Source: Cellulosimicrobium sp. Marseille-Q4280 (GTDB lineage Bacteria > Actinomycetota > Actinomycetes > Actinomycetales > Cellulomonadaceae). From it: a DNA stretch of 64,000 bases. The notes beneath the pieces are model-generated. The model had not been told where the DNA came from and searched no databases. It worked only from the letters and a program-made list of their open reading frames with translations. The stretch is from NCBI RefSeq assembly GCF_943181405.1, contig NZ_CALPBY010000006.1, positions 186,001 to 250,000 on the forward strand, given 5' to 3'. Shown piece by piece: positions 20,552 through 34,690 of the stretch. The translations under genes and the position numbers were made by a program. Numbering within the stretch: position 1 is the stretch's first letter; the number at the start of each line of letters is the position of its first letter.

Positions 20552-21994
20552 TCAGGCGAGGCCCTCGAGGTGGATCGCCTTGCGGACGGTGAGCTCGTCG
20601 AGCAGGTCCGGCCCGTAGCCCGCGCCGCCGCCGCTGCCGCGGCGCGGGTCTGCGGACCCGCCCGGCGCGCCGCCGAACACGGCATTGACCTTGACCGTCC
20701 CGACGTCGAGCACGTCGGCCGCGCGCAGGGCGTGGGCGAGCGACGGCGTGAGCACCGTCGCCGCGAGCCCGTACGCGGACGCCGACGCGCGGCGCAGACC
20801 CTCCTCGAAGTCCGCGACCCGCACGACCGGGACGACGGGGCCGAACGTCTCCTCGGTGAGGAGCGCGACGTCGTCGGGGCAGCGGTCCAGGACGGTCGGG
20901 GCGTAGAACGAGCCCGGCCGGTCGAGCCGCTCGGCGCCGGTCACCACCTCGGCGCCCGCGGCGGTCGCACCGCGCACGTGCTCGTCGACGACGGCGAGCT
21001 GGTCCTCGTCGACGAGCGGCCCCATCGAGGTCGCCTCGTCGCCCGGGTCGCCGACCCGCAGGTCCTGGGCGATGCGCGCGAGCTCGGCGACGACGGCGTC
21101 GGCCACGTCCTCCACGACGTACGCGCGCTCGACCGCCGTGCACAGCTGCCCGCCGTTGGTGAACGCGCCCGTCGCGATCTGGCGGGCCGCGAGCGCCGGG
21201 TCGACCCCGGCGTCGACGACGATCGGGTCCTTGCCGCCGTTCTCGAGCAGCACCTTCGCACCCCGCGCGCCCGCGGTCGCGGCGATGCGGCGCCCCGCGG
21301 CGGTGGAGCCGACGTGCGCGACGAGCGCCACGTCGTCGTGCGCGACGATCGCCTCGCCCGTCGCACCGTCGCCGCTGACCACGCGGAGCACGTCGGGCGG
21401 CAGGGCGCCCGCGACGAGCTCCGCGAGCCGCACGCCCGGGGCGTCGCTGCGCTCCGACGGCTTGTGGACGACGACGTTCCCCGTGACCAGCGCCGCGGCG
21501 ATCAGCCCCGCGGCGGCCGGGTACGGGTCGTTCCACGGAGTGATCACCGCGACGACGCCGCGCGGCTCCCGGCGCACCACGTCGAGCGCCGTCGGGTCCC
21601 CGGCGAGCACGCGCCCGGACCGGCCGAGGCCCGAGACGGCGGCCTCCTCGAAGAGCTCCGCCGCGACCTCCGCGGACGCGCGCGCCTCGCCCTCGAGTCG
21701 ACCGGTCGTCGCGCGCAGGAGCGCCCCGAGCTCGTCGGCGGCCTCCCGCACCGCCGTCGCGGCGGCACGGAGCGCAGCCGCACGCTCGCCCGGCGGCGTC
21801 GCGCGCCACGCGGGCCATGCCGCGACGGCGGCGCGCACGGCGGCGTCGACCTCGTCCGGTCCGGCGCACTCCACCGGGGTCCCCGGACGGCCGGTCGCGG
21901 GGTCGGTGCGCTCGAGCCGGCGTCCACCCGGGGAGACGGCGGTCGGCGCAGCGTGCGGGTCGAGGGCGGGACGTGAGGTCGAGGTCGTCGTCAT
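20552..21994 (-). CDS. Aldehyde dehydrogenase family protein
   Basis: 480 residues from ATG 21994 with CTGGAGGAC upstream. NAD(P)+-dependent oxidation of an aldehyde to an acid is expected. The catalytic Cys is in 'FTNGGQLCTAVERAYV', the general base Glu in 'VLLENGGKDPIVVDAG', the Asn oxyanion residue in 'ITPWNDPYP', and the closing 'ETFGPVVPVVRV' is present. The C-terminus has a Gly/Ser-rich insert ('RRGSGGGAGYG'), close to the variable substrate region. The physiological aldehyde is not evident. It is divergent from the carbamoyltransferase gene, and the shared region contains a perfect 16-bp palindrome. Confidence 0.9.
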   Translation of the reverse strand: MTTTSTSRPALDPHAAPTAVSPGGRRLERTDPATGRPGTPVECAGPDEVDAAVRAAVAAWPAWRATPPGERAAALRAAATAVREAADELGALLRATTGRLEGEARASAEVAAELFEEAAVSGLGRSGRVLAGDPTALDVVRREPRGVVAVITPWNDPYPAAAGLIAAALVTGNVVVHKPSERSDAPGVRLAELVAGALPPDVLRVVSGDGATGEAIVAHDDVALVAHVGSTAAGRRIAATAGARGAKVLLENGGKDPIVVDAGVDPALAARQIATGAFTNGGQLCTAVERAYVVEDVADAVVAELARIAQDLRVGDPGDEATSMGPLVDEDQLAVVDEHVRGATAAGAEVVTGAERLDRPGSFYAPTVLDRCPDDVALLTEETFGPVVPVVRVADFEEGLRRASASAYGLAATVLTPSLAHALRAADVLDVGTVKVNAVFGGAPGGSADPRRGSGGGAGYGPDLLDELTVRKAIHLEGLA

Positions 21995-22182: not shown

Positions 22183-23880
22183 ATGCGCGTCCTCGGCGTC
22201 AACGCCCTGTTCCACGACCCCTCCGCCGCGCTCGTCGTCGACGGCCGCGTGGTCGCGGCCGCGGAGGAGGAACGCTTCTCCCGGCGCAAGCACGGCAAGC
22301 GGCCCGTGCCGTTCGCGGCGTGGGAGCTGCCCGAGAAGGCGATGGCCTGGTGCCTCGAGGCCGGCGGGCTGCGGCCCCAGGACCTCGACGCCGTCGCCTA
22401 CTCGTTCGACCCGGCGCTCGCGAAGCCCGCCGAGGAGATGGGCCTGCCCGACCCGTGGGACTGGCTGCGCGTGCAGTACGCGGAGCGCGCCCCGCAGTTC
22501 ATCGCGACGGCGCTGCCCGGCCTGTCCCCCGCCGCGGTCCGGTTCGTGCCGCACGAGGTGGCGCACGCGGCGTCGGCCGCCCTCGCCTCGCCGTTCCCCG
22601 TGGCCAGCGTGCTGTCGCTCGACGGGCGCGGCGAGCGCTCGTCGCACCTCGCGGGCCGCTACGACCACGGCCGGCTCGAGGTGCTCGCGAGCCAGGAGCT
22701 GCCGCACTCCCTCGGCCTGGTCTACGAGTCGCTCACCGAGCACCTCGGGTTCCTGCGGTCGAGCGACGAGTACAAGGTCATGGCGCTCGCGTCGTACGGC
22801 GAGCCGCGGTTCCTCGACGACCTGCGCGAGATCCTCCACGCCACGGACGACGGCGGGTTCGTCGCCGAGGCCCCGGACTGGACGCGCTGGGCGCCGCGAC
22901 GTGTCGACGACGGCACGTGGGGCACCGAGCACGGCGGCCTCGCGGAGCACGCCGATCTCGCGGCGTCGGTGCAGGCGCGGCTCGAGGAGGTCCTGGTCGA
23001 CCTGGCGACGTGGCTGCACGGGCAGACCGGCGACCGCGTGCTCACGATGGGCGGCGGCACGGCGCTCAACTGCGTCGCGAACTCCCGGATCTGGCGCGAG
23101 ACGCCGTTCGAGGAGGTGTGGGTCCAGCCCGCCGCGGGCGACTCCGGCACCGCGCTCGGCGCGGCGATGCAGCTCGCGGCCGAGGCCGGCGACACGGTCG
23201 AGCCCATGGGCTCGGCCGCCCTGGGACGATCCTGGACCGACGACGAGCTCGCCGGCTGGCTGCGCACCGCGAAGGTGCCGTTCACGACCCCCGACGACCT
23301 GCCCGGCGAGGTCGCGCAGGTCCTCGCCGACAACGGGGTCGTGGCATGGTTCGACGGCCGCGCCGAGTTCGGCCCGCGCGCGCTCGGCCACCGCTCGCTC
23401 ATCGCCAACCCGGGCCCGGTCGAGAACCTCGAGCGGCTCAACGACGTCAAGGGCCGCGAGCAGTTCCGCCCCGTCGCGCCGATGGTGCTGCTCGAGGACG
23501 CGGCGGAGATCTTCAGCGGCGGCCCGATCCCCAGCCCGTACATGCTCTTCGTCCACGACGTCGCGCCGGAGTGGCGGGACCGGATCGCCACCGTCGTGCA
23601 CGTCGACGGGACCGCGCGCATCCAGACGGTCGACGAGTCCACGCCGCGCCTGCAGGCCATGATCCGGGCCTTCAAGGACCGCACGGGACTGCCCGTCGTC
23701 GTCAACACGAGCCTCAACACCGCGGGCCGCCCGATGGTCGACGACCCGCGCGACGCGCTCGAGCTCTTCGGGTCCGCGCCGGTCGACCTGCTCGTGCTCG
23801 GCCCGCACCTCGTGCGGCGCGCCGACGTGTTCGCCGGCGGGGACGGCGCCGGCGGCGACGACGGGGAGGAGCACGCATGA
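22183..23880 (+). CDS. Carbamoyltransferase, NodU/CmcH/TobZ family
   Basis: 565 residues from ATG 22183. The N-terminal YrdC-like/ASKHA part opens with 'VLGVNALFHDPSAALVVDG' and 'EEERFSRRKHGK', and 'SDEYKVMALASYGEP', 'MGGGTALNCVANS' and 'GDSGTALGAAM' follow. The C-terminal domain has 'EFGPRALGHRSLIANP' and 'REQFRPVAPMV'. All are signatures of enzymes that transfer a carbamoyl group from carbamoyl phosphate via carbamoyl-AMP to a hydroxyl, often on a sugar. As first gene of an eight-gene overlapping operon with heptose and glycosyltransferase genes, it probably O-carbamoylates the glycan or its sugar precursor. The stop overlaps the next start by 4 bp. Confidence 0.92.
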   Translation: MRVLGVNALFHDPSAALVVDGRVVAAAEEERFSRRKHGKRPVPFAAWELPEKAMAWCLEAGGLRPQDLDAVAYSFDPALAKPAEEMGLPDPWDWLRVQYAERAPQFIATALPGLSPAAVRFVPHEVAHAASAALASPFPVASVLSLDGRGERSSHLAGRYDHGRLEVLASQELPHSLGLVYESLTEHLGFLRSSDEYKVMALASYGEPRFLDDLREILHATDDGGFVAEAPDWTRWAPRRVDDGTWGTEHGGLAEHADLAASVQARLEEVLVDLATWLHGQTGDRVLTMGGGTALNCVANSRIWRETPFEEVWVQPAAGDSGTALGAAMQLAAEAGDTVEPMGSAALGRSWTDDELAGWLRTAKVPFTTPDDLPGEVAQVLADNGVVAWFDGRAEFGPRALGHRSLIANPGPVENLERLNDVKGREQFRPVAPMVLLEDAAEIFSGGPIPSPYMLFVHDVAPEWRDRIATVVHVDGTARIQTVDESTPRLQAMIRAFKDRTGLPVVVNTSLNTAGRPMVDDPRDALELFGSAPVDLLVLGPHLVRRADVFAGGDGAGGDDGEEHA

Positions 23881-25607
23881 CGACGCCCCGGCACGCGGCG
23901 GCCCCGGAGGCCGGAGCCGGTCGGCCGGGGGCATTGGCCCGCGACCCCTACGCCGTCGTCGTCCCGTCGATCGGCCGGCCCTCGCTCCTGCGGCTGCTCG
24001 AGACGCTCGCCGCGCAGGCGGAGTCGTCCCCCAGCGCGCCGGCTCCGACCGAGGTGGTCGTCGCCGACGACCGCCGCCTCCCCCTGCCCGGCCGGGGCGC
24101 GACCGGATCCTCCGTTCCGGGACCACTGGACCTCGGCGAGGCCGGCGACCGTCTCGGCGCGCGGGTCGTGCGCACGGGCGGCCGCGGCCCTGCGGCGGCG
24201 CGCAACGCCGGGTGGCGCTCGACCTCCGCGCCGTGGGTCGTCTTCCTCGACGACGACGTCGAGCTGCCCGCCGGCTGGGCCGGGCTGCTCGCGGCCGACC
24301 TCGCGGCGGCGGACGACCGCACCGGCGGCGTCCAGGGTCGCCTGCACGTGCCGCTGCCGACGGACCGCCGTCCCACCGACTGGGAGCGCGGGACCGCGGG
24401 CCTGCAGGACGCGCTGTGGCCGACCGCCGACATGGCGTACCGCCGCGCGGCGCTCGAGCAGGTGTCCGGGTTCGACGAGCGGTTCCCCCGGGCCTACCGC
24501 GAGGACGCCGACCTCGCGCTGCGGGTCCGCGACGCCGGCTGGAACCTCGAGCGCGGCACCCGCACCACGACCCACCCCGTCCGCCCGACCGACGACGGCG
24601 TGAGCCTGCGCGTCCAGGCCGGGACGCGCGACGACGCGACGATGCGCGCGCTGCACGGGCCGGACTGGCGCGAGCGTGCCGAGACGGGCCGTGGCCGCCT
24701 GGCGTGGCACGTCGCGACGGTCGCCGCGGCGGGCGTCGGCGTCGCCGGGATGCTCGCCCGTCGACGGCGCGTCGCCGCGCTCGGCGCCGCGGCATGGGCC
24801 GGTCTCACCCTCGACTTCGCGCGACGCCGCCTCGCGCCCGGCCCGCGACCCGGCGACGACGTCTTCGGTGCCGAGCTGCGCCGCATGCTCTGGACGAGCG
24901 CCGCGATCCCGTTCGCGGCCGTGCGCCACCGCGTGGCCGGGACCGTCGCGGCGCGGCGCGGCCTCGACCCGTGGCCGCCGCCGCTCGCCGCCGTCCTCTT
25001 CGACCGCGACGGCACCCTCGTGCACGACGTCCCCTACAACGGCGACCGGGCCGAGGTCCGCCCGGTCGAGGGCGCGCGCGCGGTCCTCGACGACCTGCGG
25101 GCGCGCGGCGTGCGCGTCGGCGTGGTCTCGAACCAGTCGGGCATCGCCCGGGGCCTGCTCACGCGCGAGCAGGTCGACGCCGTCAACGCGCGCGTCGAGG
25201 AGCTGCTCGGGCCGTTCGACACGTGGCAGGTGTGCCCGCACGGGCCCGACGACGCGTGCGCGTGCCGCAAGCCCGCGCCCGGCATGGTCCTCGCCGCCGC
25301 CGCGGAGCTCGGCGTGCCGCCGTGGCGCTGCGCGGTCGTCGGCGACATCGGGGCCGACGTCGGGGCCGCGGTCGCCGCGGGCGCCGTGCCGGTGCTCGTC
25401 CCGACGCCGGTCACCCGCCCGGAGGAGGTCGACGCCGCCCCGCGCGTCGCCCCCGACCTCGCCGCCGCGGTCACGATGCTCGACGACCGGCGCCACGCCG
25501 CGCCGCCTGAGGGCGTGACGTCGAGATCGGCAGGATCGCATCAGATCGGCAGCCCGCGACTGCCGATCTCGCGCCGATCTGCCGATCTCGGGGGGCGTGG
25601 GTCATGA
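23877..25607 (+). CDS. GT2 glycosyltransferase fused to GmhB-like phosphatase
   Basis: 576 residues from ATG 23877. Residues about 20-270 form a GT-A glycosyltransferase ('YAVVVPSIGRPSLLRLLETL', 'VVFLDDDVELPAGW', 'AYREDADLALRVRDAGW'). Residues about 285-330 hold hydrophobic stretches. Residues about 370-540 are a HAD-IIIA phosphatase with nucleophile Asp376 and Asp378 in 'FDRDGTLVHD', Ser/Asn in 'VVSNQSGIARG', the structural zinc motif 'CPHGPDDACACRKP' and 'VVGDIGADVGAA'. That set is diagnostic of heptose 1,7-bisphosphate phosphatase (GmhB). The fusion couples precursor dephosphorylation to a transferase. The last roughly 27 residues are encoded by a palindromic repeat (25522-25590). Confidence 0.9.
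   Translation: MTTPRHAAAPEAGAGRPGALARDPYAVVVPSIGRPSLLRLLETLAAQAESSPSAPAPTEVVVADDRRLPLPGRGATGSSVPGPLDLGEAGDRLGARVVRTGGRGPAAARNAGWRSTSAPWVVFLDDDVELPAGWAGLLAADLAAADDRTGGVQGRLHVPLPTDRRPTDWERGTAGLQDALWPTADMAYRRAALEQVSGFDERFPRAYREDADLALRVRDAGWNLERGTRTTTHPVRPTDDGVSLRVQAGTRDDATMRALHGPDWRERAETGRGRLAWHVATVAAAGVGVAGMLARRRRVAALGAAAWAGLTLDFARRRLAPGPRPGDDVFGAELRRMLWTSAAIPFAAVRHRVAGTVAARRGLDPWPPPLAAVLFDRDGTLVHDVPYNGDRAEVRPVEGARAVLDDLRARGVRVGVVSNQSGIARGLLTREQVDAVNARVEELLGPFDTWQVCPHGPDDACACRKPAPGMVLAAAAELGVPPWRCAVVGDIGADVGAAVAAGAVPVLVPTPVTRPEEVDAAPRVAPDLAAAVTMLDDRRHAAPPEGVTSRSAGSHQIGSPRLPISRRSADLGGRGS
25522..25590. repeat. Nested palindromic element inside a coding 3' end
   Basis: Outer arms CGAGATCGGCAG (25522-25533) and CTGCCGATCTCG (25579-25590) pair over 12 bp. 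An inner hairpin AGATCGGCAG (25543-25552) / CTGCCGATCT (25560-25569) pairs over 10 bp with a 7-nt loop. The unit GATCGGCAG occurs twice in each orientation. It is translated as the C-terminal tail of the GT2-GmhB protein and lies 14 bp before the next start codon. Confidence 0.75.
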
Positions 25608-26782
25608 GCGCCGACGTGCTGGCCGTCCGGCTCGACAGCGACGGCGACGTGCTCCTCACGGGGCCGGCGGTCCGCGCCCTCGCGGCGGGCGCCGCGGCCC
25701 GCGGGGGCCAGGTCGACGTGCTCGCGTCGTCGGCCGGTCGCGCGGCCGCAGGCCTGCTTCCCGGCGTGCGCGACGTGCTGACGTTCGACGCGCCGTGGTC
25801 CGGGTACGACCCGCCGCCGCTCGACCGCGCCGAGGTCATGGCCCTGGTCGAGACGCTCGCCGCGCGCCGGTACGCCGCCGCGGTGGTCTTCACGTCGTTC
25901 CACCAGAGCCCGCTGCCCATGGCGCTGCTGGCCCGGCTCGCCGGGATCCCCCACGTCGCCGGGACCAGCGACGACTACCCCGGCTCGCTGCTCGACGTGC
26001 GGCACCGCCGACCCGACGGCCTGCACGAGGTCGAGGCCGCTCTGGACCTCGCGCGCGCCGCCGGGTTCCCCTCCGCCCCGGGCGACGACCGGCTGCGCGT
26101 GCGCGGGCCGCTGCCCGACGTGCGCCACCTCCTGCCCGTCCCCACCGACGCCGCGGGCGCGGACGACGACGCGCCGTACGTCGTCGTGCACCCGGGCGCG
26201 TCGGTGCCCGCCCGCGCCCCGTCGCCCGACCACGCGCGCGCGGTCGTCGCCGCCCTGGTCGAGCGCGGCCACCGCGTCGTCGTCACGGGCGGGCCGCGCG
26301 AGACCGACCTCGCCGCGCACGTCGCCGCCGGACCTGTCGCCGGACGCGGCGCCGCACGTGTCGTCGACCTCTCCGGCCGGACGGACCTCCCCGGCCTCGC
26401 GGCGGTGCTCGCGGGTGCGCAGTGCGTCGTCGTGGGCAACACCGGTCCCGCGCACCTCGCCGCAGCCGTCGGGACCCCTGTCGTGTCGCTCTTCTCGCCC
26501 GTCGTGCCCGCCGACCGCTGGGCGCCGTGGGGTGTGCCGACGGTCGTCCTCGGCGACCGGTCCGCGGCGTGCCAGGGCTCGCGTGCCCGCGAGTGCCCCG
26601 TCCCGGGCCACCCGTGCCTGACGGGCGTCGACCCGCAGGAGGTCGTCGACGCCGTCGCGCGGCTCGCTCCCGGCTCGACGGCCGGCCCGCCGGGCGAGCC
26701 CTTCCGGACGCCCCAGCACCACCCGACCGACGCGTCACCCGCCCGCGGGCCGGCGCCCGAGACCGCGGAGGTCGTCGCATGA
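25604..26782 (+). CDS. Glycosyltransferase family 9 (heptosyltransferase-like)
   Basis: 392 residues from ATG 25604, overlapping the preceding stop by 4 bp. It is a GT-B fold enzyme of the ADP-heptose:LPS heptosyltransferase family: N-terminal 'VLAVRLDSDGDVLLTGPAVRAL', mid-region 'VVVHPGASVPARAPS', 'RVVVTGGPRETDLA' and the C-terminal donor motif 'VVVGNTGPAHLAAAVGTPVVSLF'. Family members use ADP-activated heptose. The 40-residue C-terminal Pro/Thr tail is disordered. In an operon that also encodes heptose-activating enzymes, the predicted role is heptosyl transfer to an envelope acceptor. Acceptor and exact donor stereochemistry are unknown. Confidence 0.9.
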   Translation: MSADVLAVRLDSDGDVLLTGPAVRALAAGAAARGGQVDVLASSAGRAAAGLLPGVRDVLTFDAPWSGYDPPPLDRAEVMALVETLAARRYAAAVVFTSFHQSPLPMALLARLAGIPHVAGTSDDYPGSLLDVRHRRPDGLHEVEAALDLARAAGFPSAPGDDRLRVRGPLPDVRHLLPVPTDAAGADDDAPYVVVHPGASVPARAPSPDHARAVVAALVERGHRVVVTGGPRETDLAAHVAAGPVAGRGAARVVDLSGRTDLPGLAAVLAGAQCVVVGNTGPAHLAAAVGTPVVSLFSPVVPADRWAPWGVPTVVLGDRSAACQGSRARECPVPGHPCLTGVDPQEVVDAVARLAPGSTAGPPGEPFRTPQHHPTDASPARGPAPETAEVVA

Positions 26783-27804
26783 GGATCCTCGTCTGGCACG
26801 TGCACGGCTCGTGGGCCACGGCCTTCGTCGCCGGCGAGCACGAGTACGTCGTCCCCGTCGTCGCGGACCGCGGGCCCGAGGGTCGCGGTCGCGCGCAGAC
26901 GTGGGACTGGCCCGCGACGGTGCGCGAGGCGACGCCCGAGCAGCTCGCCGACCTCGCGGCCGGCGGCGGGATCGACGTCGTCGTGCTGCAGCGTCCCGAG
27001 GAGGTCGAGCTGCTGCGGCGCTGGACCGGTCTCGTCCCCGGCCGGGACGTCCCTGCCGTCTACGTGGAGCACAACGCGCCCACCGGCCACGCCGCCTCGA
27101 CGCGCCACCCGCTCGCCGACCTGGACGTCGTCGAGGAGGGCCTCGTCCCGATCGTCCACGTCACGGCGTTCAACGCGCTCATGTGGGACACCGGCGACGC
27201 GCGGACCCTCGTCGTCGACCACGGCATCCCCGACCCCGGCCACCTCTACTCGGGTGAGCGGGCGAGCGTCGGCGTCGTCGTCAACGAGCCCGTGCGGCGC
27301 TGGCGCGTCGCGGGCACCGACGTCCTCGTCGAGGTGGGCCGCCACGTGCCGCTCGACGTGTACGGCATGGGCGTCGGCAAGCTCGCCGAGCACCTGGACG
27401 CGCCCGGCGCAGCACCCGTCACCGCAGGCACCGCCCGTCACCGCACGCACGGCCTGCACGACGACGTCCCGCAGGCCGCGATGCACGCGCGCCTCGCGAC
27501 GTCGCGCGCCTACCTGCACCCCTACCGCTGGACGAGCCTCGGCCTGTCGCTCCTCGAGGCGATGGCCCTCGGGATGCCCGTCCTCGCCCTCCCGACCACC
27601 GAGGCACCCGTCGCGGTGCCGCCCACCGCCGGGACGCTCAGCTCCCGCCCCGACGAGCTCGTCGCGACCGCGCGCCGCTGGCTCGCCGACCCGGACGAGG
27701 CGCGCGAGCACGGCTCCGCCGCGCGCGCCCACGTCCTCGAGCACTACTCCCACGCCAGGTTCCTGCACCGCTGGGACACGGTCCTCCAGGAGGTGACCTC
27801 ATGA
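26779..27804 (+). CDS. GT4-like glycosyltransferase
   Basis: 341 residues from ATG 26779, coupled by a 4-bp overlap. It opens 'MRILVWHVHGSWATAFV' and has 'VYVEHNAPTGHAA', 'VVDHGIPDPGHLY' and a donor-binding C-terminus ('HPYRWTSLGLSLLEAMALGMPVLALP', in which the E-x7-G/P pattern of retaining GT-B enzymes is recognisable). The N-terminal domain is shorter than in typical GT4 proteins, and the K-x3 loop is not obvious. It probably adds a hexose or heptose to the growing glycan on the cytoplasmic side. Confidence 0.82.
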   Translation: MRILVWHVHGSWATAFVAGEHEYVVPVVADRGPEGRGRAQTWDWPATVREATPEQLADLAAGGGIDVVVLQRPEEVELLRRWTGLVPGRDVPAVYVEHNAPTGHAASTRHPLADLDVVEEGLVPIVHVTAFNALMWDTGDARTLVVDHGIPDPGHLYSGERASVGVVVNEPVRRWRVAGTDVLVEVGRHVPLDVYGMGVGKLAEHLDAPGAAPVTAGTARHRTHGLHDDVPQAAMHARLATSRAYLHPYRWTSLGLSLLEAMALGMPVLALPTTEAPVAVPPTAGTLSSRPDELVATARRWLADPDEAREHGSAARAHVLEHYSHARFLHRWDTVLQEVTS

Positions 27805-29159
27805 AGATCGCCATGATCTCCGAGCACGCCAGCCCGCTCGCCGCCCTGGGCGGCGTCGACGCCGGCGGCCAGAACGTCCACGTCGCGTCGCTCGCGACGC
27901 GGCTCGGCGCCCAGGGGCACGACGTGGAGGTCTACACCCGCCGCGACGACGCCTCGCTGCCGGAGCGGGTGCCCCTCGCGCCGCGGGTCGAGGTCGTCCA
28001 CGTGGACGCGGGTCCCCCGGTCCCCGTCCCCAAGGACGAGCTGCTCCCCCACATGGACGCGTTCGGCGCGGACCTCCTGCGCCGCTGGTCGGACCCGGCC
28101 GTCCCGGACGCCGTGCCCGACGTCGTGCACGCGCACTTCTGGATGTCGGGGATCGCGGGCCTGCTGTCCGCGCCCCCGCTCGGCATCCCGCTCGTGCAGA
28201 CGTTCCACGCGCTCGGTTCGGTCAAGCGGCGGCACCAGGGCGCGCGGGACACGAGCCCGCGCGAGCGGGTCGCGCGGGAGCGCCTGCTGTGCCGCGGGGT
28301 CGACCGCATCGTCGCGACGTGCAGCGACGAGGTCGCCGAGCTCGTCGCGCTCGGCGCGGACCCGGACCGCGTCGACGTCGTGCCGTGCGGCGTCGACATC
28401 GGGCGCTTCCGCCCCGGCCCGCGGCGCTCCGTGCACCGGCATCGCGAACCGGGGACGCTGCGGCTCCTGTCGATCGGTCGCCTCGTCGAGCGCAAGGGCG
28501 TCGACACCGTCATCGAGGCGCTGCCCGACCTGCCGGGCGCGGAGCTCGTCGTCGCCGGCGGGCCGCCGGCCGCGCACCTCGAGGAGGACGAGGAGGCGCG
28601 CCGCCTGGTCAAGCTCGCCGACGCGCTCGGCGTCCTCGACCGCGTCCGGCTCGTGGGGAGCGTGACGCAGGACGACGTGCGCGGCCTCATGCAGACGGCC
28701 GACGTCGTGGTGTGCGACCCGTGGTACGAGCCGTTCGGCATCGTCCCGCTCGAGGCCGCGGCCTGCGGACGCCCGGTGGTCGGGGCCGCCGTCGGCGGCC
28801 TGCTCGACTCGGTCGTCGACGGCCGCACCGGCCTGCTGGTCCCTCCGCGCGACCCGGCCGCGCTGGCCGCGGCGCTGCGGCGGATCGCCGACGACCCGGC
28901 GCTCGGCGAGCGCCTCGGGTCGGCGGCACGGGTCCGGGCGGAGCGCCTGTACGGCTGGACGACCGTCGCGGCGCGCACGCTGGAGTCGTACGAGCGCGTC
29001 GTCGCCGAGGGTCGGCGGTCGGCCGCACGGGACACGAGGACCGCGCACGGCCCGGTGCCCCCCGCGGTGCGTACCGCCACACCCACCGCCACGCCCACCA
29101 CCACGCCTCCCGACATGGCGCCCGACGGCCGTCCGGTGCGGGCGGTGAGCGCCCGATGA
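27801..29159 (+). CDS. GT4 glycosyltransferase
   Basis: 452 residues from ATG 27801. N-terminal 'MISEHASPLAALGGVDAGGQNVHVASLA' is the glycine-rich acceptor loop shared with MshA and sucrose-phosphate-synthase-like enzymes. 'VVHAHFWMSGIAG' and 'CSDEVAELVALGA' follow. The donor half contains 'LLSIGRLVERKGVDTVIEAL' and the EX7E motif in 'EPFGIVPLEAAACGRPVV', defining a retaining GT-B transferase using an NDP-sugar. A 45-residue Thr/Pro tail follows. It is part of the heptose operon and overlaps the next gene by 4 bp. Which linkage it makes cannot be read from sequence. Confidence 0.9.
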   Translation: MKIAMISEHASPLAALGGVDAGGQNVHVASLATRLGAQGHDVEVYTRRDDASLPERVPLAPRVEVVHVDAGPPVPVPKDELLPHMDAFGADLLRRWSDPAVPDAVPDVVHAHFWMSGIAGLLSAPPLGIPLVQTFHALGSVKRRHQGARDTSPRERVARERLLCRGVDRIVATCSDEVAELVALGADPDRVDVVPCGVDIGRFRPGPRRSVHRHREPGTLRLLSIGRLVERKGVDTVIEALPDLPGAELVVAGGPPAAHLEEDEEARRLVKLADALGVLDRVRLVGSVTQDDVRGLMQTADVVVCDPWYEPFGIVPLEAAACGRPVVGAAVGGLLDSVVDGRTGLLVPPRDPAALAAALRRIADDPALGERLGSAARVRAERLYGWTTVAARTLESYERVVAEGRRSAARDTRTAHGPVPPAVRTATPTATPTTTPPDMAPDGRPVRAVSAR

Positions 29160-31435
29160 CCGCGGCCGAGCGCTGGCTGCGCGCGCACGCCGACGACCTC
29201 CACCAGGGCCTCGACCTGCTCCTCGCCGAGGCCGGGCGCATCGACGCGTGGGGCGAGCACCTCGCCGACGTCGTGCTCGGGGGCGGGCGCCTGCTCGTCG
29301 CGGGCAACGGGGGCAGCGCCGCGGAGGCGCAGCACCTCACCGCGGAGCTCGTGGGACGGTTCGAGGGCGAGCGCGTGCCGCTGTCCGCGATCAGCCTGCA
29401 CGCCGAGACCTCCAGCCTCACCGCGATCGTCAACGACTACGGGATCGGCGAGATGTACGCGCGGCAGGTCGCCGCGCACGGCCGCCCGGGCGACGTCCTG
29501 CTGCTGCTGTCCACGTCGGGCAACAGCGAGAACGTCGTCGCGGCCGCCCACCGCGGGCGCGAGCTCGGCCTCACGACGTGGGCCCTCACCGGGCCGAGCC
29601 CGTGCGGGCTCTCGGCCGCGTGCGACGACACGCTCGCGATGCAGGGCGCCTCGACGTCGTCCGTCCAGGAGCTGCACCTCGTCGTCGCCCACGCGCTGTG
29701 CGCCGCGCTCGACGCGCACGTCCGGCAGCGGGAGACCGGGGCCTCGGGCGAGCCCGTGCCGGAGCCGGTGACCGCACCGGCTGTGTCGCCAGGGGCTTCT
29801 CCGGGCGTCACACCGGGGGTCTCGCCGGAGACCGCTGCGCCGGCGGACGACCGCCCACGCGTCGTCGTCGTGGGAGACGTCCTGCTCGACCGCGACGTCG
29901 ACGGCCAGGTGACGCGCTTCTCCCCCGACGGGCCCGTGCCCGTCGTCGACACCCTCGGTGTGCGGCGCAGCCCCGGCGGCGCCGGGCTCACCGCGCTCCT
30001 CGCGGCCGACGGCGCGCGCGTGCGTCTCGTCGCACCCCTCGCCGACGACGACGCCGGGCGCGACCTCCGCGGCCTCCTGAGCCGGCACGTCGAGGTCGTG
30101 GCCGTGCCGCAGGAGGGCACGACGCGCCGCAAGACGCGCGTGCGCTCGGCCGGGCAGACGGTCGTCCGCGTCGACGACGGCGGCCCCGCCCGCCCGGTCG
30201 ACGTCCCGGTCGCGCGGGTCCGCACGGCGCTCGCCGACGCGGCCGTCGTGCTCGTCTCCGACTACGGCGCGGGCACCACGCACGACGGCCCGCTGCGCGA
30301 CCTGCTCGCCGAGGCCGCGACGTCGACGCCGGTCGTGTGGGACCCGCACCCGCGCGGCGGGCGCCCGGTGCCCGGCGCCGCGCTCGTCACGCCGAACCTC
30401 GCCGAGGCGCTCGACGCCGCGGACTCGCTCGGGATCGAGGCGTCGCCCGACGACCTCGGCGGTCTCGCGCAGGCGCTCGCGCGCGGCTGGGAGGTCGGCG
30501 CGGTCTGCGTCACCGCAGGCGACCGCGGCGCGTTCGTCGCGCGGCCGACCGGCGAGCCTGCCTACGTCCCGGCGACGGCCGTCGCGGGCGACCCGTGCGG
30601 CGCGGGCGACCGCTTCGCGTCGACCGTCGCGGCCGAGCTCGCGCGCGGCACCGGCCTCGTCGACGCCGTGGCGCGCGGCGTCGACGTCGCGTCCACGTGG
30701 GTCGCCACGGGCGGTGCGGAGGGCTACCGGCGACGCGCGGAGACCTCGGGGCAGGTCGGCGGCGCGGCGCACCGGACCGGGCCGTCCGGCACCACGGGGT
30801 CGGGCGAGCCGGCCGGCTCGGGCAGGTCCGTCGCCGGCGGTGCCTTCGCCGACGGCGACCCCCGCGGCGTCGCGCGGAGCGACGCGCCGACGCCCCAGGA
30901 GGTCGGGGAGCGCCTGCGCGCGCTCGGCGGCACCGTCGTCGCGACGGGCGGGTGCTTCGACATCCTGCACGCCGGGCACGTCGCGACGCTCGAGGCCGCG
31001 GCCCGGCTCGGCGACCACCTCGTCGTCCTCCTCAACGGTGACGCGTCCGTGCGGCGGCTCAAGGGGCCCGAGCGGCCCGTCGTCGCGCAGTCCGACCGTG
31101 CGCGGGTCCTGGCCGCTCTCGACTGCGTGTCCGCCGTCGTGGTGTTCGACGAGGACGACCCGCGCGCCGCGCTCGACGCGCTGCGTCCCGACGTGTGGGC
31201 CAAGGGCGGTGACTACACCGAGGAGACGCTTCCCGAGGCGGAGGTCGTCCGCGGCCACGGCGGGCGCGTCGTCGTCCTGCCCTACGTGGCCGGCCGCTCC
31301 ACGACCTCGATCCTCGAGCGCTCGGGCCGCTACGCGCCCGCCGCCGCTCCCGGCGCAGGCCCCGAGGGCCACCCGGGCACCGACCGCGCTCCCGTCCCGA
31401 CCACCTCCCCGACCCCGAAGGAGACCTCCGCATGA
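29156..31435 (+). CDS. GmhA-HldE trifunctional heptose biosynthesis fusion
   Basis: 759 residues from ATG 29156 carrying three enzymes. Residues 1-190 are a GmhA-type sedoheptulose-7-phosphate isomerase, with His60/Glu64 ('QHLTAELVGRF'), Gln171/His179 and the phosphate loop 'STSGNSENV'. Residues about 233-520 are a PfkB/HldE heptose-7-phosphate kinase ('VVGDVLLDRDVDG', catalytic Asp485 in 'PCGAGDRF'). Residues about 585-720 are an HldE C-terminal nucleotidyltransferase ('GGCFDILHAGHVATLEAA', 'LNGDASVRRLKGPERPV', 'KGGDYTEETLPEAE'). Pro/Gly-rich linkers separate them. With the GmhB domain encoded upstream, these complete the route to nucleotide-activated D-glycero-D-manno-heptose. The expected nucleotide is ADP by homology to HldE. 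Confidence 0.92.
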   Translation: MTAAERWLRAHADDLHQGLDLLLAEAGRIDAWGEHLADVVLGGGRLLVAGNGGSAAEAQHLTAELVGRFEGERVPLSAISLHAETSSLTAIVNDYGIGEMYARQVAAHGRPGDVLLLLSTSGNSENVVAAAHRGRELGLTTWALTGPSPCGLSAACDDTLAMQGASTSSVQELHLVVAHALCAALDAHVRQRETGASGEPVPEPVTAPAVSPGASPGVTPGVSPETAAPADDRPRVVVVGDVLLDRDVDGQVTRFSPDGPVPVVDTLGVRRSPGGAGLTALLAADGARVRLVAPLADDDAGRDLRGLLSRHVEVVAVPQEGTTRRKTRVRSAGQTVVRVDDGGPARPVDVPVARVRTALADAAVVLVSDYGAGTTHDGPLRDLLAEAATSTPVVWDPHPRGGRPVPGAALVTPNLAEALDAADSLGIEASPDDLGGLAQALARGWEVGAVCVTAGDRGAFVARPTGEPAYVPATAVAGDPCGAGDRFASTVAAELARGTGLVDAVARGVDVASTWVATGGAEGYRRRAETSGQVGGAAHRTGPSGTTGSGEPAGSGRSVAGGAFADGDPRGVARSDAPTPQEVGERLRALGGTVVATGGCFDILHAGHVATLEAAARLGDHLVVLLNGDASVRRLKGPERPVVAQSDRARVLAALDCVSAVVVFDEDDPRAALDALRPDVWAKGGDYTEETLPEAEVVRGHGGRVVVLPYVAGRSTTSILERSGRYAPAAAPGAGPEGHPGTDRAPVPTTSPTPKETSA

Positions 31436-32166
31436 CCTCCCCCACGTTCCAGCAGCCCGCCGACTCCCCGCTCCCCGTGCCCCGCGAGGTCGGCACCGTC
31501 TACGTCACGGGCGGCGCGAGCGGCCTCGGTGCGGCGCTCGTCGAGGCCGTGACCGCCGCGGGCGGCAAGCCCGTCGTGCTCGACCGGGTCGCCCCGGCGA
31601 ACGGCGGCCTGCACGCGATCGTCGACCTGTCCGACTCCGCGGCAGCCGCAGCGGCCGTCGATCGGCTCGCGGTCGAGGTCGGCCCACCCGACGCCGTGGT
31701 CACCGCCGCGGGGACCGACGCGTGCGGGCGGCTCGACGAGATCGACGTCGAGACGTGGGAGCGCGTCGTGCGCGTCAACCTCTTCGGGACCGTGGCCGTC
31801 GTGCGCGCCGCCATCCCCTACCTCGCGGAGCGGCGCGGGACCGTCGTGACCGTCGCCTCGACGCTCGGGCTCAAGGGCGTCTCGGACGCGACCGCCTACT
31901 GCGCGTCGAAGTTCGCGGTGCGGGGCTTCTCGCAGGCGCTCGCCGCCGAGCTCGCCGGCACGGTCGGCGTGACGTGCCTCGTCCCGGGCGGCATGCGGAC
32001 CGCGTTCTTCGACGGCCGGACCGAGCAGTACAAGCCCGGGCCGGACGCCGACCTCAACGACCCGCGCGCGACGGCGGCCGCCGTCGTCACCGCGCTGCGC
32101 CAGCCCGTGGGCTGCGAGATCCGCGAGATGCTGGTGATGGCCTCCGGCGAGACGTCGTGGCCGTGA
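31432..32166 (+). CDS. SDR oxidoreductase/epimerase in heptose operon
   Basis: 244 residues from ATG 31432. It is a classical SDR: 'VYVTGGASGLGAALVEAV', 'VTAAGTDACGR', catalytic Ser in 'VTVASTLGLKG', and YxxxK in 'ATAYCASKFAVRGF'. It lacks the extended-SDR features expected of the ADP-heptose 6-epimerase HldD, so it is more likely a keto-reductase/dehydrogenase acting on a sugar or on the glycan precursor. It is coupled on both sides by 4-bp overlaps. Its role in the pathway is inferred only from position. Confidence 0.82.
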   Translation: MTSPTFQQPADSPLPVPREVGTVYVTGGASGLGAALVEAVTAAGGKPVVLDRVAPANGGLHAIVDLSDSAAAAAAVDRLAVEVGPPDAVVTAAGTDACGRLDEIDVETWERVVRVNLFGTVAVVRAAIPYLAERRGTVVTVASTLGLKGVSDATAYCASKFAVRGFSQALAAELAGTVGVTCLVPGGMRTAFFDGRTEQYKPGPDADLNDPRATAAAVVTALRQPVGCEIREMLVMASGETSWP

Positions 32167-33299
32167 GCGACGGCGCGACCGAGCTGGCCCCCGACCTGCC
32201 CGCGGTCGTCGAGGGTGAGGACGAGGGCACGGTCCTCGTGCTGCGCGCGCTGGGGCTCGGCGACGCGGTGACCGCGATCCCCGCGCTGCGCGGGATCCGA
32301 CGCGCGTGGCCGGGACGGCGCGTGCTCCTCGCCGCCCCGGCCGAGGTCGGCTCCTGGCTCGTAGGGCTGGGGCTCGTCGACGGCGTCGTCCCGACGAGGG
32401 GCCTCGCGCCCCTGCGCTGGGTCGACGAGGCCGAGACCGTCACCGGCATGCCCGCGGCAGGGCACGTGGCGGTGAACCTCCACGGCAGCGGGCCGGAGAG
32501 CCACCGCGTGCTGCTCGCGACCGAGCCGGACCGGCTCGTGGCGTTCGCGTCGGGCGAGGCCGGGGTCGACGGACCGGCGTGGGACCGGGACGAGCACGAG
32601 GTGGACCGCTGGTGCCGGCTCGTCACCTCCGCCGGGGGCGAGTGCGCGCGCGAGGACCTGCGGCTCGAGCCACCCGCCCCGCGCGACGCCCACGTCGTCG
32701 TGCACCCGGGCGCCGCGTCGGGTTCCCGGCGGTGGCCGGCCGAGCGGTTCGCCGCCGTGGTGCGGCACCTCGCGGACGCGGGGTACGACGTCGTCGTCAC
32801 GGGCAGCGCGGACGAGCGCGAGCTGTGCGAACGGGTGGTCGCGGAGGCGACGGACGCGCACGCGCCCGTCCCGACCGGTTCGCCGACCGACACACCGACC
32901 GGCAGCGCGACCGGCGACCGGGCGCGCACGCGTCGCGGCGCCGTCGACCACGCGGCGGGGGTGCTCGACCTCCCCGCGCTCGCCGACGTCGTCGCGACGG
33001 CGCTCCTCGTGGTGAGCGGGGACACGGGCGTCGCGCACCTCGCGACGGCGTACGGGACGCCGTCGGTCGTGCTGTTCGGCCCGACGCCGCCCGCGCTGTG
33101 GGGGCCGGCGATCGAGCCGGACCGGCACGTCGTCCTCTGGCACGGCGAGGACGTGCTCCCGGCGGCCCACGGCGAGCCCGCGCCCTACCGGGGCGACCCG
33201 CACGGCGAGGACCTCGACCCGGCGCTCGAGCGCGTCACCGTCGACGAGGTGACGGACGCGGCCGACGCGCTGCTCGCGGACGAGCAGACCGGCCGCTGA
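32163..33299 (+). CDS. Glycosyltransferase family 9 (second copy)
   Basis: 378 residues from GTG 32163. Heptosyltransferase-family features: 'VLVLRALGLGDAVTAIPALRGI', 'HVVVHPGAASGSRRWPAERFAAVV', 'VVVTGSADERELCE' and 'LVVSGDTGVAHLATAYGTPSVVLFGP'. The K/R-W motif and the S-G-D-T-G-x-x-H donor motif are more canonical than in the copy at 25604. A Thr/Pro/Gly insertion ('TGSPTDTPTGSATGD') interrupts the C-terminal domain. It is the last gene of the operon and ends 13 bp before the convergent haloalkane dehalogenase stop. Probable second heptosyl (or related) transfer step. Confidence 0.9.
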   Translation: MSDGATELAPDLPAVVEGEDEGTVLVLRALGLGDAVTAIPALRGIRRAWPGRRVLLAAPAEVGSWLVGLGLVDGVVPTRGLAPLRWVDEAETVTGMPAAGHVAVNLHGSGPESHRVLLATEPDRLVAFASGEAGVDGPAWDRDEHEVDRWCRLVTSAGGECAREDLRLEPPAPRDAHVVVHPGAASGSRRWPAERFAAVVRHLADAGYDVVVTGSADERELCERVVAEATDAHAPVPTGSPTDTPTGSATGDRARTRRGAVDHAAGVLDLPALADVVATALLVVSGDTGVAHLATAYGTPSVVLFGPTPPALWGPAIEPDRHVVLWHGEDVLPAAHGEPAPYRGDPHGEDLDPALERVTVDEVTDAADALLADEQTGR

Positions 33300-33312: not shown

Positions 33313-34176
33313 TCAGCGCAGGGCGTGGCGGTCGAGCCACGCCCCGACCGCGCGGCCGATCTCGACGGGCCTGTCCTCGGTCGCGTGGTGGCCTGCTGCA
33401 CCGAGGTGCTCGACCTCGAGCGCAGAGATGGTCTCCCGCGCCCACGCGACCGCGGGCTCGTCGAGCAGCAGGGTCGGGGAGCCCTCGAAGGCGAGCAGCA
33501 GCTTCGGCACGTCCGAGGAGTCCTGCAGCCAGACCCCTGCCCGCTCGAGCCGTGCGACGAGCTCCGGGGGCGGCGCGCCGAGCTGGCGAGCCCAGGCCAG
33601 CAGCGGGCGACGGCTCTCCCGCGTGGGGTAGGGCGCGAGGTACGCGGCGAGGTCCTCCGCGGAGGCCGGGGCCAGCACGCCGCCCGTGTAGGCCTGGCGG
33701 ACGGCCGTGTCCTGGTCCAGGAACATCACCTCGCCCTGCGGAGACGCCACGAGCTCGCGGCGCGCCCGCGCCTGCGGCGACAGGTGCTCGGGTCGTACCG
33801 GCCGGAGCACGGCCTCGAACAGCGCTGCGCCGCGGACCCGCTCGGGGAACCGGGCCGCGCGGTCGATCGCGAGCGCCCCGCCCCAGTCGTGACCGACGAG
33901 GACCGCCGGCTCGTCCCCCAGCACGGCGTCGAACCAGGCGTCGAGGTAGCGCGCGTGGTCGGCGAACGTGTACGCGAGGTCGGGCTTGCCGGACGCGCCC
34001 ATGCCGATCAGGTCCGGCGCCAGCAGCCGGCCGTGCCCGACGGCCGGCAGCACCCGGCGCCAGGTGTACGACGACGACGGGTTGCCGTGGAGGAACACGA
34101 CCGGAGCCGCACCGGGGGCACCGGTCGAGGACTCCGTGAAGTGCAGGGTCGAGCCGAGGACGGGGACGTCAGGCAT
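33313..34176 (-). CDS. Haloalkane dehalogenase-like hydrolase
   Basis: 287 residues from ATG 34176. The alpha/beta hydrolase shows haloalkane dehalogenase-II/DhaA features: halide-stabilising Asn32 in 'HGNPSSSYTWR', nucleophile Asp97 with Trp98 in 'VGHDWGGALA', an acid candidate Glu121 in 'LFEAVLRP', and catalytic His in 'AAGHHATEDRP'. Members hydrolyse carbon-halogen bonds to alcohol and halide, although many chromosomal homologues have unknown substrates. The start overlaps the end of the MarR gene by 8 bp, so the two form an operon and the MarR protein probably controls it. Confidence 0.87.
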   Translation of the reverse strand: MPDVPVLGSTLHFTESSTGAPGAAPVVFLHGNPSSSYTWRRVLPAVGHGRLLAPDLIGMGASGKPDLAYTFADHARYLDAWFDAVLGDEPAVLVGHDWGGALAIDRAARFPERVRGAALFEAVLRPVRPEHLSPQARARRELVASPQGEVMFLDQDTAVRQAYTGGVLAPASAEDLAAYLAPYPTRESRRPLLAWARQLGAPPPELVARLERAGVWLQDSSDVPKLLLAFEGSPTLLLDEPAVAWARETISALEVEHLGAAGHHATEDRPVEIGRAVGAWLDRHALR

Positions 34177-34690
34177 CGATGGCTCCTGGGTCGAGGGGCG
34201 TGTCGGGCGGTGTGTCGGGTCGTGCGTCGAGGGGCGCGTCGAGCAGCGCGGTGAGCATGGCGACCAGCTCCGCGCTGCGCGGGCTGTCGCGACCGCCGAG
34301 CGGCGCGAGCAGCTGGTCGAGCAGTGCCTGGACCGTGCGCATCGCCGGGCGGACGACGGCCAGACCGCGTTCCGTCAGCTCCAGGCGGACGACGCGGGAG
34401 TCCTGGTCGTCCCGGCTGCGGGCCACCAGGCCGTCGGCCTCCAGCGTGCGGACGAGCCGAGAGACGTACATCGGCTCCAGGCCCGAGACCTCGGCGAGGG
34501 CACGCTGGCTCGGCGCGCCCGGGTCCTCTCCTGCCGGGGTGGCACCGCGCATCGCGAAGAGCGTCGTGAGCACGACGTACGTGGCGTGCGTCAGGCCGTG
34601 GGGTGCCACGGCGCGGTCGACGGCGGTGCGCCACCGGGTCGACAGGCGCCAGACGAGCGCGCCGGCCCGGGCGCCGGGCGGGATGAGCAT
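34169..34690 (-). CDS. MarR-family transcriptional regulator
   Basis: 173 residues from ATG 34690. The winged-helix core contains 'LTHATYVVLTTLFAM', recognition region 'SQRALAEVSGLEPMYVSRLVRTLEADGLV' and wing 'RSRDDQDSRVVRLELTERG'. A repeated Asp/Pro/Thr C-terminal tail follows the last dimerisation helix. It overlaps the dehalogenase gene, suggesting a ligand-responsive local repressor. The promoter TTGTCA-17-TAGCGT (34725-34697, minus strand) places the transcription start on the A of the ATG, so the mRNA is probably leaderless, and a TTTAGTAAA palindrome sits in the spacer as a likely auto-operator. Confidence 0.9.
   Translation of the reverse strand: MLIPPGARAGALVWRLSTRWRTAVDRAVAPHGLTHATYVVLTTLFAMRGATPAGEDPGAPSQRALAEVSGLEPMYVSRLVRTLEADGLVARSRDDQDSRVVRLELTERGLAVVRPAMRTVQALLDQLLAPLGGRDSPRSAELVAMLTALLDAPLDARPDTPPDTPLDPGAIDA

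Follow-up and report, generated by a model that had tools for sequence, protein, structure and literature searches.

Eight consecutive overlapping genes in a Cellulosimicrobium genome, together with a nearby gene of the UDP-xylose synthase type, probably constitute a cwg-type operon which builds a carbamoylated, heptose-containing, and probably also xylose-containing, glycan of the actinobacterial envelope. As judged from its sequence, the locus encodes all four NDP-heptose activities with their catalytic motifs intact and two proteins of the GT9 family, as the first-pass annotation had proposed.

The genes lie in a window of 64,000 nucleotides, the whole stretch of DNA that was analysed. Gene calling by codon-position GC recovered the eight plus-strand genes, which overlap by the four bases ATGA at six junctions and by 10 bases at the last one. 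The start of the GT2-GmhB gene was set by its ATGA overlap, 23934 being an alternative start call. Pfam and NCBIfam profiles back every domain named for this run, so that the gene families initially listed were borne out; nevertheless, no NCBIfam equivalog cut-off was reached among the matches listed for the window proteins, the nearest being that of the equivalog domain rfaE_dom_II (175.0 of 181.5 bits), and the names of the cluster proteins are therefore family-level. The eight genes first described are real, but the locus is larger: the UXS-type gene belongs to it, and a divergent aldehyde dehydrogenase gene (ALDH) is perhaps a further member, both of which had been missed.

Table 1 Features of the locus, whose eight-gene run spans positions 22183–33299 of the window.
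Feature	Positions	Strand	Type	Length (aa)	Profile or structure match
ALDH	20552–21994	-	Aldehyde dehydrogenase, divergent from operon; possible accessory member		Pfam Aldedh
CarbT	22183–23880	+	NodU/TobZ/GdmN-type O-carbamoyltransferase	565	Pfam Carbam_trans_N/C
GT2-GmhB	23877–25607	+	Fusion of GT2 (about 23877–24896) and GmhB-type HAD phosphatase (about 24972–25511)	576	Glycos_transf_2, GmhB/HAD-IIIA
GT9a	25604–26782	+	Heptosyltransferase-family	392	Pfam PF01075, 90 bits
GT4a	26779–27804	+	GT4-type glycosyltransferase	341	Pfam Glyco_trans_1_2 / Glycos_transf_1
GT4b	27801–29159	+	GT4 glycosyltransferase nearest MshA	452	Glycos_transf_1, 127 bits
GmhA-HldE-HldE	29156–31435	+	GmhA isomerase (29156–29740), HldE kinase (29837–30739) and HldE nucleotidyltransferase (30893–31330)	759	SIS_2/GmhA, PfkB/rfaE_dom_I, rfaE_dom_II
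SDR	31432–32166	+	Short-chain dehydrogenase/reductase	244	adh_short, 125 bits
GT9b	32157–33299	+	Heptosyltransferase-family, DTG..H motif	380	PF01075, 83.5 bits
UXS	35365–36387	-	UDP-glucuronate decarboxylase (UDP-xylose synthase) type		4gll/2b69 match

The three-domain GmhA-HldE-HldE protein is the only match of its kind in its own genome. In the GmhA domain, the His/Glu and Gln/His pairs, which we take to be active-site residues, are found in 144/144 and 143/143 aligned loci, respectively, and are the same in the window. The GAGD motif of the kinase (135/135 loci) and the HxGH motif of the nucleotidyltransferase (140/140), presumably functional motifs like the STT motif discussed below, are equally conserved, and both HldE domains can be aligned to structures 5x9q and 4e84. 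The GmhB part has the DxD motif in 133/133 and the CxH..CxC cysteines in 129/133 aligned loci, which we assume to be the catalytic and zinc-loop residues; among solved structures, 3l8h comes nearest, together with 4pnh, 3l8e and 2gmw, which are D,D-heptose 1,7-bisphosphate phosphatases.

Three-domain isomerase/kinase/nucleotidyltransferase NDP-heptose enzymes have already been published (PMC11573728), as has the use of NDP-heptose for septacidin in Streptomyces (PMC11573728, PMC11461863). The published tridomain type (PMC11573728) resembles that of the window in combining the same three activities in one protein, with a GmhB phosphatase completing the four steps; in the window, however, a GT2 is joined to the phosphatase, and the pathway genes are linked to a carbamoyltransferase, a UXS and further glycosyltransferases. 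The Gram-negative pathway for the LPS inner core (GmhA, HldE, GmhB, HldD, WaaC/WaaF) has its first four steps and the GT9 family in common with the window; in contrast, neither an outer membrane nor LPS is expected here, the window GT9s are distant from the WaaC/WaaF type (about 32–42 bits to 1psw and 2gt1) and HldD was not detected. The suggested absence of an HldD-type epimerase held across the whole genome, where no protein reached the TIGR02197 cut-off and the best of three weak matches scored 111.9 versus 274.6 bits; the same profile was above cut-off in 2/14 control genomes. Because no HldD was found, the heptose would keep its D-glycero form. The UXS gene was rejected as an HldD within the window, since it scored a weak 72 bits against HldD, while its match to UDP-glucuronic acid decarboxylase 1 (4gll/2b69) reached 308 bits.

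Alignment of the UXS protein to 4gll showed the SEVYGDP, YxxxK and SQTR motifs of UXS1, which we take to be functional, and the protein is 62% identical to the product of a Streptomyces fungicidicus gene that precedes CarbT. The UXS family goes with CarbT, being present in 82/103 deduplicated loci containing both CarbT and HldE versus 2/28 loci with HldE only; such gene-presence counts are lower bounds, as they depend on in-house ORF calls and on loci cut at contig ends. Four locus pairs represent one genome in two collections, and these repeats were dropped from the gene-presence counts and kept in the residue counts. Two UDP-sugar dehydrogenase matches above cut-off are present in the window's own genome. 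The ALDH reading frame has GGAGG ahead of its ATG at 21994 and scores 350 bits against Pfam Aldedh (on the form starting at 21751), and the family occurs near the cluster in 40 loci including the window, and in 23/103 deduplicated CarbT+HldE loci. The SDR has an intact YxxxK motif, which is also found in 89/89 of the best SDR matches.

These families outline a pathway whose early steps are supported by sequence. The GmhA domain would isomerise sedoheptulose 7-phosphate, the HldE kinase domain would phosphorylate C1, the GmhB domain would remove the C7 phosphate and the C-terminal HldE domain would nucleotidylate the product to NDP-D-glycero-D-manno-heptose, with no 6-epimerisation, while UXS would turn UDP-glucuronate into UDP-xylose. 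GT9b, with its canonical donor motif, and perhaps GT9a may then add heptose, the GT2 and the two GT4s may attach other sugars to the acceptor, CarbT may carbamoylate a sugar hydroxyl, likeliest on the heptose, and the product may be exported by machinery encoded outside the locus. GT4b scored 282.9 of 462.5 bits against the MshA profile TIGR03449, and the GT4a family is also present in the clusters of other genomes.

The heptose donor had been named as ADP-heptose, and the pathway motifs behind that proposal are intact; the nucleotide, however, need not be ADP, since the STT motif of the window nucleotidyltransferase (YVAGRSTT) has at position 5 the arginine described as a mark of NTP-promiscuous enzymes (PMC11573728). 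This arginine occurs in at least 116/139 aligned loci. It is also found in the nearest solved nucleotidyltransferase, 5x9q (FEHDRSTT), which we take to be Burkholderia HldC. The sequence predicts that CDP- and UDP-heptose would be made besides ADP-heptose. Both GT9 proteins have the catalytic Asp, which, like the donor-site Asp-Thr/Ser-Gly..His, we assume to be functional in heptosyltransferases. Asn replaces the WaaC/WaaF Asp of the DTG/DSG..H motif in GT9a (nearest solved structures 1psw and 2gt1/6dfe), as it does in 131/133 aligned loci, and transfer of ADP-heptose by this protein is therefore not assured. GT9b, which matches 1psw, 3tov and 2gt1, retains the motif Asp, as do 108/121 of its best matches, some of which are possibly GT9a proteins. 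The arginine and the Asn would both fit a glycan whose donor is CDP- or UDP-heptose instead of ADP-heptose, with GT9a adapted accordingly, but we consider this quite unlikely: the window and 97/140 relatives have Tyr instead of Phe/Leu at position 1 of the STT motif, promiscuous enzymes still make ADP-heptose, and GT9b keeps its DTG..H motif. Equally doubtful is the fuller proposal that the cwg glycan is a carbamoylated D-glycero-D-manno-heptose/xylose oligosaccharide whose heptose comes from CDP-/UDP-heptose through the Asp-to-Asn GT9; if true, it would be the first physiological use of those NDP-heptoses, in a Gram-positive envelope. Their roles are called elusive in PMC11573728.

The nearest solved relatives of CarbT are 7xb6, decarbamoylnovobiocin carbamoyltransferase, GdmN and TobZ, to which it is homologous over most of its length with conserved motifs (HD and HxxxH in 136/136 aligned loci); unlike these enzymes, it falls into a group of its own, whose members among the fetched loci are 63–92% identical to it. 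Its closest relatives are in records labelled Cellulosimicrobium funkei (92%), Sphaerisporangium cinnabarinum (92%, a doubtful label) and Cellulomonas sp. (90%), which makes the Micrococcales host first suggested plausible, C. funkei belonging to that order. Across 197 genomes of the class, HldE and CarbT were found together in 32, HldE only in 12, CarbT only in 3 and neither in 150, and for HldE and GT9a the figures were 42 together, 2 and 2 singly and 151 neither, in tables whose E-value limits differ (1e-40, 1e-30, 1e-80) and for which part of the first-pass candidates per genome was scored. In the three genomes positive for CarbT only, an HldE match was absent at the threshold used. Five CarbT matches at 39–43% identity (G256, G264, G283, G284, G337) were set aside as paralogues, and one genome (G357) was scored HldE-positive though its match spans GmhA only. 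In several Geodermatophilaceae, the roughly 10 kb on either side of CarbT contain no heptose gene; matches to GmhA and to both HldE domains, kinase and nucleotidyltransferase, were nevertheless present in 11/11 genomes tested, representing 11 of the 13 CarbT-only loci of at least 20 kb (all but L180 and L195; shorter loci not included) and accompanied by three cluster-bearing controls, so that these lone CarbT genes were rejected as a break in the link. Because CarbT accompanies the heptose genes even when they are not neighbours, heptose is the likeliest carbamoyl acceptor.

The original pairing of a carbamoyltransferase with the heptose genes is supported by sequence; the cluster is not peculiar to one genome but widespread, and it matches the sigma-E-controlled cwg operon of Streptomyces. 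HldE matches occur in 52/248 genomes of the order and 44/197 of the class, often with gene order retained, and in just 3/19 genomes sampled from the host family, its own included. The synteny search that had been suggested showed that the arrangement recurs: of 51 loci fetched from the order, 17 have the full set of 11 domains in the same sequence as the window (one of the 51 other order matches, G016, was left out). Uniqueness to one genome is thereby rejected, and chance assembly is untenable because the gene order recurs elsewhere.

The accessible text on the cwg ("cell wall glycan") operon of S. coelicolor describes twelve genes (SCO6179–SCO6190), of which the eighth (SCO6186) encodes a phosphoheptose isomerase and the ninth (SCO6187) a bifunctional enzyme, as vancomycin-induced and partly sigma-E-dependent; even there, a cell-wall glycan is a predicted product (PMC6767563). 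Our comparison of the window with cwg relied on the promoter and the list of genes as published, not on the S. coelicolor sequence itself. In a Streptomyces-type genome (G674), the published sigma-E cwg promoter is exact over 29/29 bases upstream of twelve genes in the order UXS-CarbT-GT2-GmhB-GT9a-GT4a-GT4b-GmhA-HldE-GT9b-GT2x-GT2x. Ten of the twelve families (all but the GT2x pair) are common to the window; UXS apart, these are collinear (nine families), and CarbT is the second cwg gene. The window differs in that GmhA-HldE and GT2-GmhB are fused, UXS lies about 2 kb downstream in inverted orientation, the GT2x pair is missing at the locus, and both an SDR absent from cwg-type loci and the divergent ALDH are added. 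The recurring gene order and the match of promoter and genes in G674 suggest that the window holds the Micrococcales-type version of cwg, an operon inducible by vancomycin, and the envelope assignment would follow from this correspondence. No relaxed sigma-E-like site (AAC-N15–18-C(G/A)TC) was found upstream of the window CarbT or UXS. A strict motif scan found 0/28 sites in Streptomyces upstreams, a failed control, and 5/104 in others versus 4.0 expected; it demanded CGTC, whereas near-exact cwg promoters in Streptomyces-type genomes (6 of 7 found) read CATC. One search of the genome contig collection gave no match to the exact cwg promoter.

A small-molecule pathway, in which the heptose enters a secreted carbamoylated saccharide and not an envelope glycan, seems rather unlikely, but has precedents in the heptose of septacidin (PMC11461863, PMC11573728) and the carbamoyl groups of tobramycin, novobiocin and geldanamycin, and natural-product O-carbamoyltransferases are the nearest solved CarbT relatives with a named product. 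An oligosaccharide would be within reach of the five glycosyltransferase domains, and large plasmids of Streptomyces and Arthrobacter carry related clusters. We recognised no glycan exporter, polymerase or ligase in a scan of 20 flanking proteins, of which five had no Pfam match, and hydropathy gave no sign of a strong membrane segment (the highest mean over 19 residues was 1.97, for GT9b), which leaves room for an intracellular or small-molecule product. The same flanking proteins, however, included no polyketide- or peptide-synthase families, and a gene set which recurs over many families of the class and corresponds to a sigma-E cell-envelope-stress operon is unlike a strain-specific metabolite cluster. 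Transfer of NDP-heptose onto a protein, as in the aah-dependent protein heptosylation of E. coli (PMC11461863), is very improbable: no substrate protein was recognised among the 40 most widespread near-cluster families, mostly unannotated, and the five glycosyltransferase domains, UXS and CarbT suggest an oligosaccharide.

Our literature searches found no paper on actinobacterial ADP-heptose with sedoheptulose 7-phosphate, on heptose with carbamoyltransferase and cell wall, on heptosyltransferase in Micrococcales, on an actinobacterial heptose glycan or linking cwg with heptose in Streptomyces, and the accessible text of the literature mentioning the operon names no cwg product. The cwg-type set recurs in many actinobacteria, and the Streptomyces operon that it matches is known, though chemically unsolved; the envelope glycan reading, with NDP-heptose, UDP-xylose and carbamoylation, tells which sugar chemistry to seek, points to a possible non-LPS use of NDP-heptoses, and can draw on the fused enzymes of the window as expressible material for testing. 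In Frankia, the accessible part of one report describes an ADP-heptose:LPS heptosyltransferase gene as raised under salt stress.

The operon in the window consists of eight genes on one strand, joined by six ATGA overlaps of 4 bases and a last overlap of 10 bases, and domain scans bore out the families that the first-pass annotation had assigned to them; its remark that no HldD-type 6-epimerase is visible also held, as the best match in the genome reached 111.9 of 274.6 bits. None of the operon proteins attained an NCBIfam equivalog cut-off among the matches listed, and their names are therefore family-level. The locus extends beyond these eight genes.

Features of the window locus and its surroundings
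Feature	Position	Strand	Remark
PIG-L de-N-acetylase-methyltransferase fusion	9485..10933	-	~11 kb upstream
Aldehyde dehydrogenase	20552..21994		divergent from operon
Eight-gene operon	22183..33299	+
CarbT (O-carbamoyltransferase)	22183..23880	+
GT2-GmhB-type phosphatase fusion		+	after CarbT
GT9a	25604..26782	+
GT4a	26779..27804	+
GT4b	27801..29159	+	MshA-like
GmhA-HldE kinase-HldE nucleotidyltransferase	29156..31435	+	759 residues
Short-chain dehydrogenase (SDR)	31432..32166	+
GT9b	32157..33299	+
Hydrolase			between GT9b and UXS
MarR regulator	34169..34690	-	between GT9b and UXS
Acetyltransferase			between GT9b and UXS
UXS (UDP-xylose-synthase type)	35365..36387	-
ANTAR-domain protein	40111..40869	+
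ANTAR-domain protein	41666..42343	+

The heptose-pathway enzymes of the window appear intact by motif. Counting the best match per fetched locus, with four genomes entering twice, the His/Glu and Gln/His pairs of GmhA are kept in 144/144 and 143/143 loci, GAGD of the HldE kinase in 135/135, HxGH of the nucleotidyltransferase in 140/140, and DxD and the zinc-type CxH..CxC of GmhB in 133 and 129 of 133; the window has them all, and we take these residues to have their usual catalytic roles. The enzymes were aligned to solved ones, and phosphoheptose isomerases were among the matches of the three-domain enzyme, which has no match but itself in its own genome (4.86 Mb). It is well supported, and highly probable, that these genes direct synthesis of NDP-D-glycero-D-manno-heptose. 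As to the nucleotide, the nucleotidyltransferase motif reads YVAGRSTT, with Tyr rather than Phe/Leu as first residue and Arg at the fifth position. At least 116 of 139 loci share this Arg, as does the solved enzyme 5x9q; it has been described as marking enzymes for which CTP and UTP also serve as substrates (PMC11573728, PMC11461863).

Both GT9 proteins match the LPS heptosyltransferases 1psw and 2gt1 (~32-42 bits each). The DTG..H motif is retained in GT9b and seen in 108 of 121 best matches; where GT9b is missing, the match counted may be a GT9a protein. GT9a retains the catalytic Asp in all 129 loci, and at the donor motif 131 of 133 have Asn instead of Asp. GT9b thus looks canonical, and GT9a altered in a conserved manner.

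SCO6179-6190 of Streptomyces coelicolor has been described as a twelve-gene operon, cwg, with a cell wall glycan as predicted product, induced by vancomycin and in part dependent on sigma-E (PMC6767563); SCO6186 is given as a phosphoheptose isomerase and SCO6187 as bifunctional (PMC5839063). With up to two mismatches, the published cwg promoter was found in 7 of 392 genomes of one genus (g103, taken as Streptomyces). The single exact match, in G674, lies ~190-230 bases upstream of UXS as its start is placed here (147 in the published description). Downstream of it, twelve genes share one strand, UXS, CarbT, GT2, GmhB, GT9a, GT4a, GT4b, GmhA, HldE, GT9b and two GT2s, with the next gene on that strand ~350 bases further. 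Three of the six other promoter-matching genomes were inspected, of which G372 and G553 have the same twelve genes (two of them matching in two pieces in G553). In the third, G570, the cluster is reduced, its near-exact promoter being followed by no more than GT2, a fragment of GmhB and GT4b. Through the published promoter and gene list, this order identifies the window operon, on sequence grounds, as cwg-type. It differs from cwg in its two fusions, extra SDR and displaced UXS, and in lacking, at the locus, the two terminal GT2 genes, to one of which the best match in its own genome is 35% identical. No sigma-E-like site was found upstream of CarbT or UXS in the window, and cwg regulation should therefore not be carried over.

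UDP-glucuronic acid decarboxylase 1 aligned with the greater part of UXS at 308 bits, and the gene immediately upstream of the carbamoyltransferase in Streptomyces fungicidicus shares 62% identity with UXS. With repeat genomes removed, 103 loci have both CarbT and HldE, and 28 have HldE only; the UXS family occurs in 82 of the former but 2 of the latter, and GT2 in 100 and 2, respectively, so that both accompany the carbamoylated form. The window locus likely makes UDP-xylose; the UDP-glucuronate for this could come from two UDP-sugar dehydrogenase matches that lie elsewhere in the genome and score above cut-off. Cluster membership of the aldehyde dehydrogenase is weak, as its family occurs in 23/103 and 8/28 of these loci. 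The hydrolase, MarR regulator and acetyltransferase look like bystanders; within the limits used, the fetched loci contained no relatives of theirs. The two ANTAR-domain proteins also lie near the cluster, and the upstream PIG-L fusion, with a NodS match, is a possible sugar-modifying gene.

With the own genome counted, searches with the three-domain protein gave matches in 52 of 248 order-level and 44 of 197 class-level genomes. From 50 of the order's 51 other matching genomes, 51 loci were taken; CarbT is present in 25, and in 17 all 11 domains occur in window order. The class scan and a plasmid collection provided 44 loci, 30 of them with CarbT at ≥64% identity. A CarbT alignment scan gave at least 570 relatives among at least 592 pattern matches; 55 loci of ≥20 kb came from the best 80, 39 having the seven core domains and 13 CarbT alone. 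Among the matches listed, CarbT is closest, at 92% identity, to proteins in the records labelled Cellulosimicrobium funkei and Sphaerisporangium cinnabarinum; Cellulomonas sp. comes next, at 90%. Two labels may be wrong: the Sphaerisporangium locus (L148) is Cellulosimicrobium-like and L195, labelled Bacillus sp. AZ43, Geodermatophilaceae-like. Distribution is patchy: with the host counted, HldE was matched in 3 of 19 genomes sampled from the host family.

Of the 197 class genomes, 42 have both HldE and GT9a, 151 lack both, and 2 and 2 have one without the other; for HldE and CarbT, 32 have both, 12 have HldE but not CarbT, 3 have CarbT but not HldE, and 150 have neither. Because related genomes among them are not independent, Fisher values for these counts are not to be taken as probabilities. 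The three CarbT-positive genomes, with no HldE match at the limit used, count against the CarbT-heptose link. A further test did not rely on gene neighbourhood: in 11 of 11 Geodermatophilaceae genomes with CarbT but no heptose gene within ~10 kb either side (L168, L170, L173, L174, L177, L187, L188, L190, L191, L198, L214), GmhA, kinase and nucleotidyltransferase matches lie elsewhere in the genome.

By analogy with cwg, we infer that the product would be an envelope glycan; the main rival is a secreted small saccharide. No glycan exporter, ligase or polymerase was recognised among 20 flanking proteins, five of them without a Pfam match, and a simple hydropathy scan found no strong membrane segment (top peaks, 1.97 in GT9b and 1.71 in GT4a). 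Tridomain enzymes for NDP-heptose have already been published, as has the presence of heptose in septacidin, a Streptomyces antibiotic (PMC11573728, PMC11461863), and so has the cwg operon itself. Within a search scope outside which most subscription journals fell, no literature joined cwg to heptose or heptosyltransferases to Micrococcales. The finding offers testable chemistry for the unsolved cwg operon.

Variant clusters were also seen. A second form without CarbT (L056, L058, L068, L070, L073-L075, L078, L079 and L091, an Arthrobacter plasmid) has extra HldE kinase and/or nucleotidyltransferase matches downstream and, in most, GT9 on the opposite strand; it possibly makes a different heptose glycan. 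In the small clusters L047, L048 and L050, GT9a adjoins HldE/GmhA without most other genes; G078 has both L048 and a fuller cluster, L066, which suggests a second use of NDP-heptose. Finally, on plasmid pFRL3 of Streptomyces sp. FR1 (L089), a GmhA-HldE protein adjoins GT9, a 37%-identical carbamoyltransferase, radical SAM and P450 genes, in what looks like a heptose natural-product cluster.
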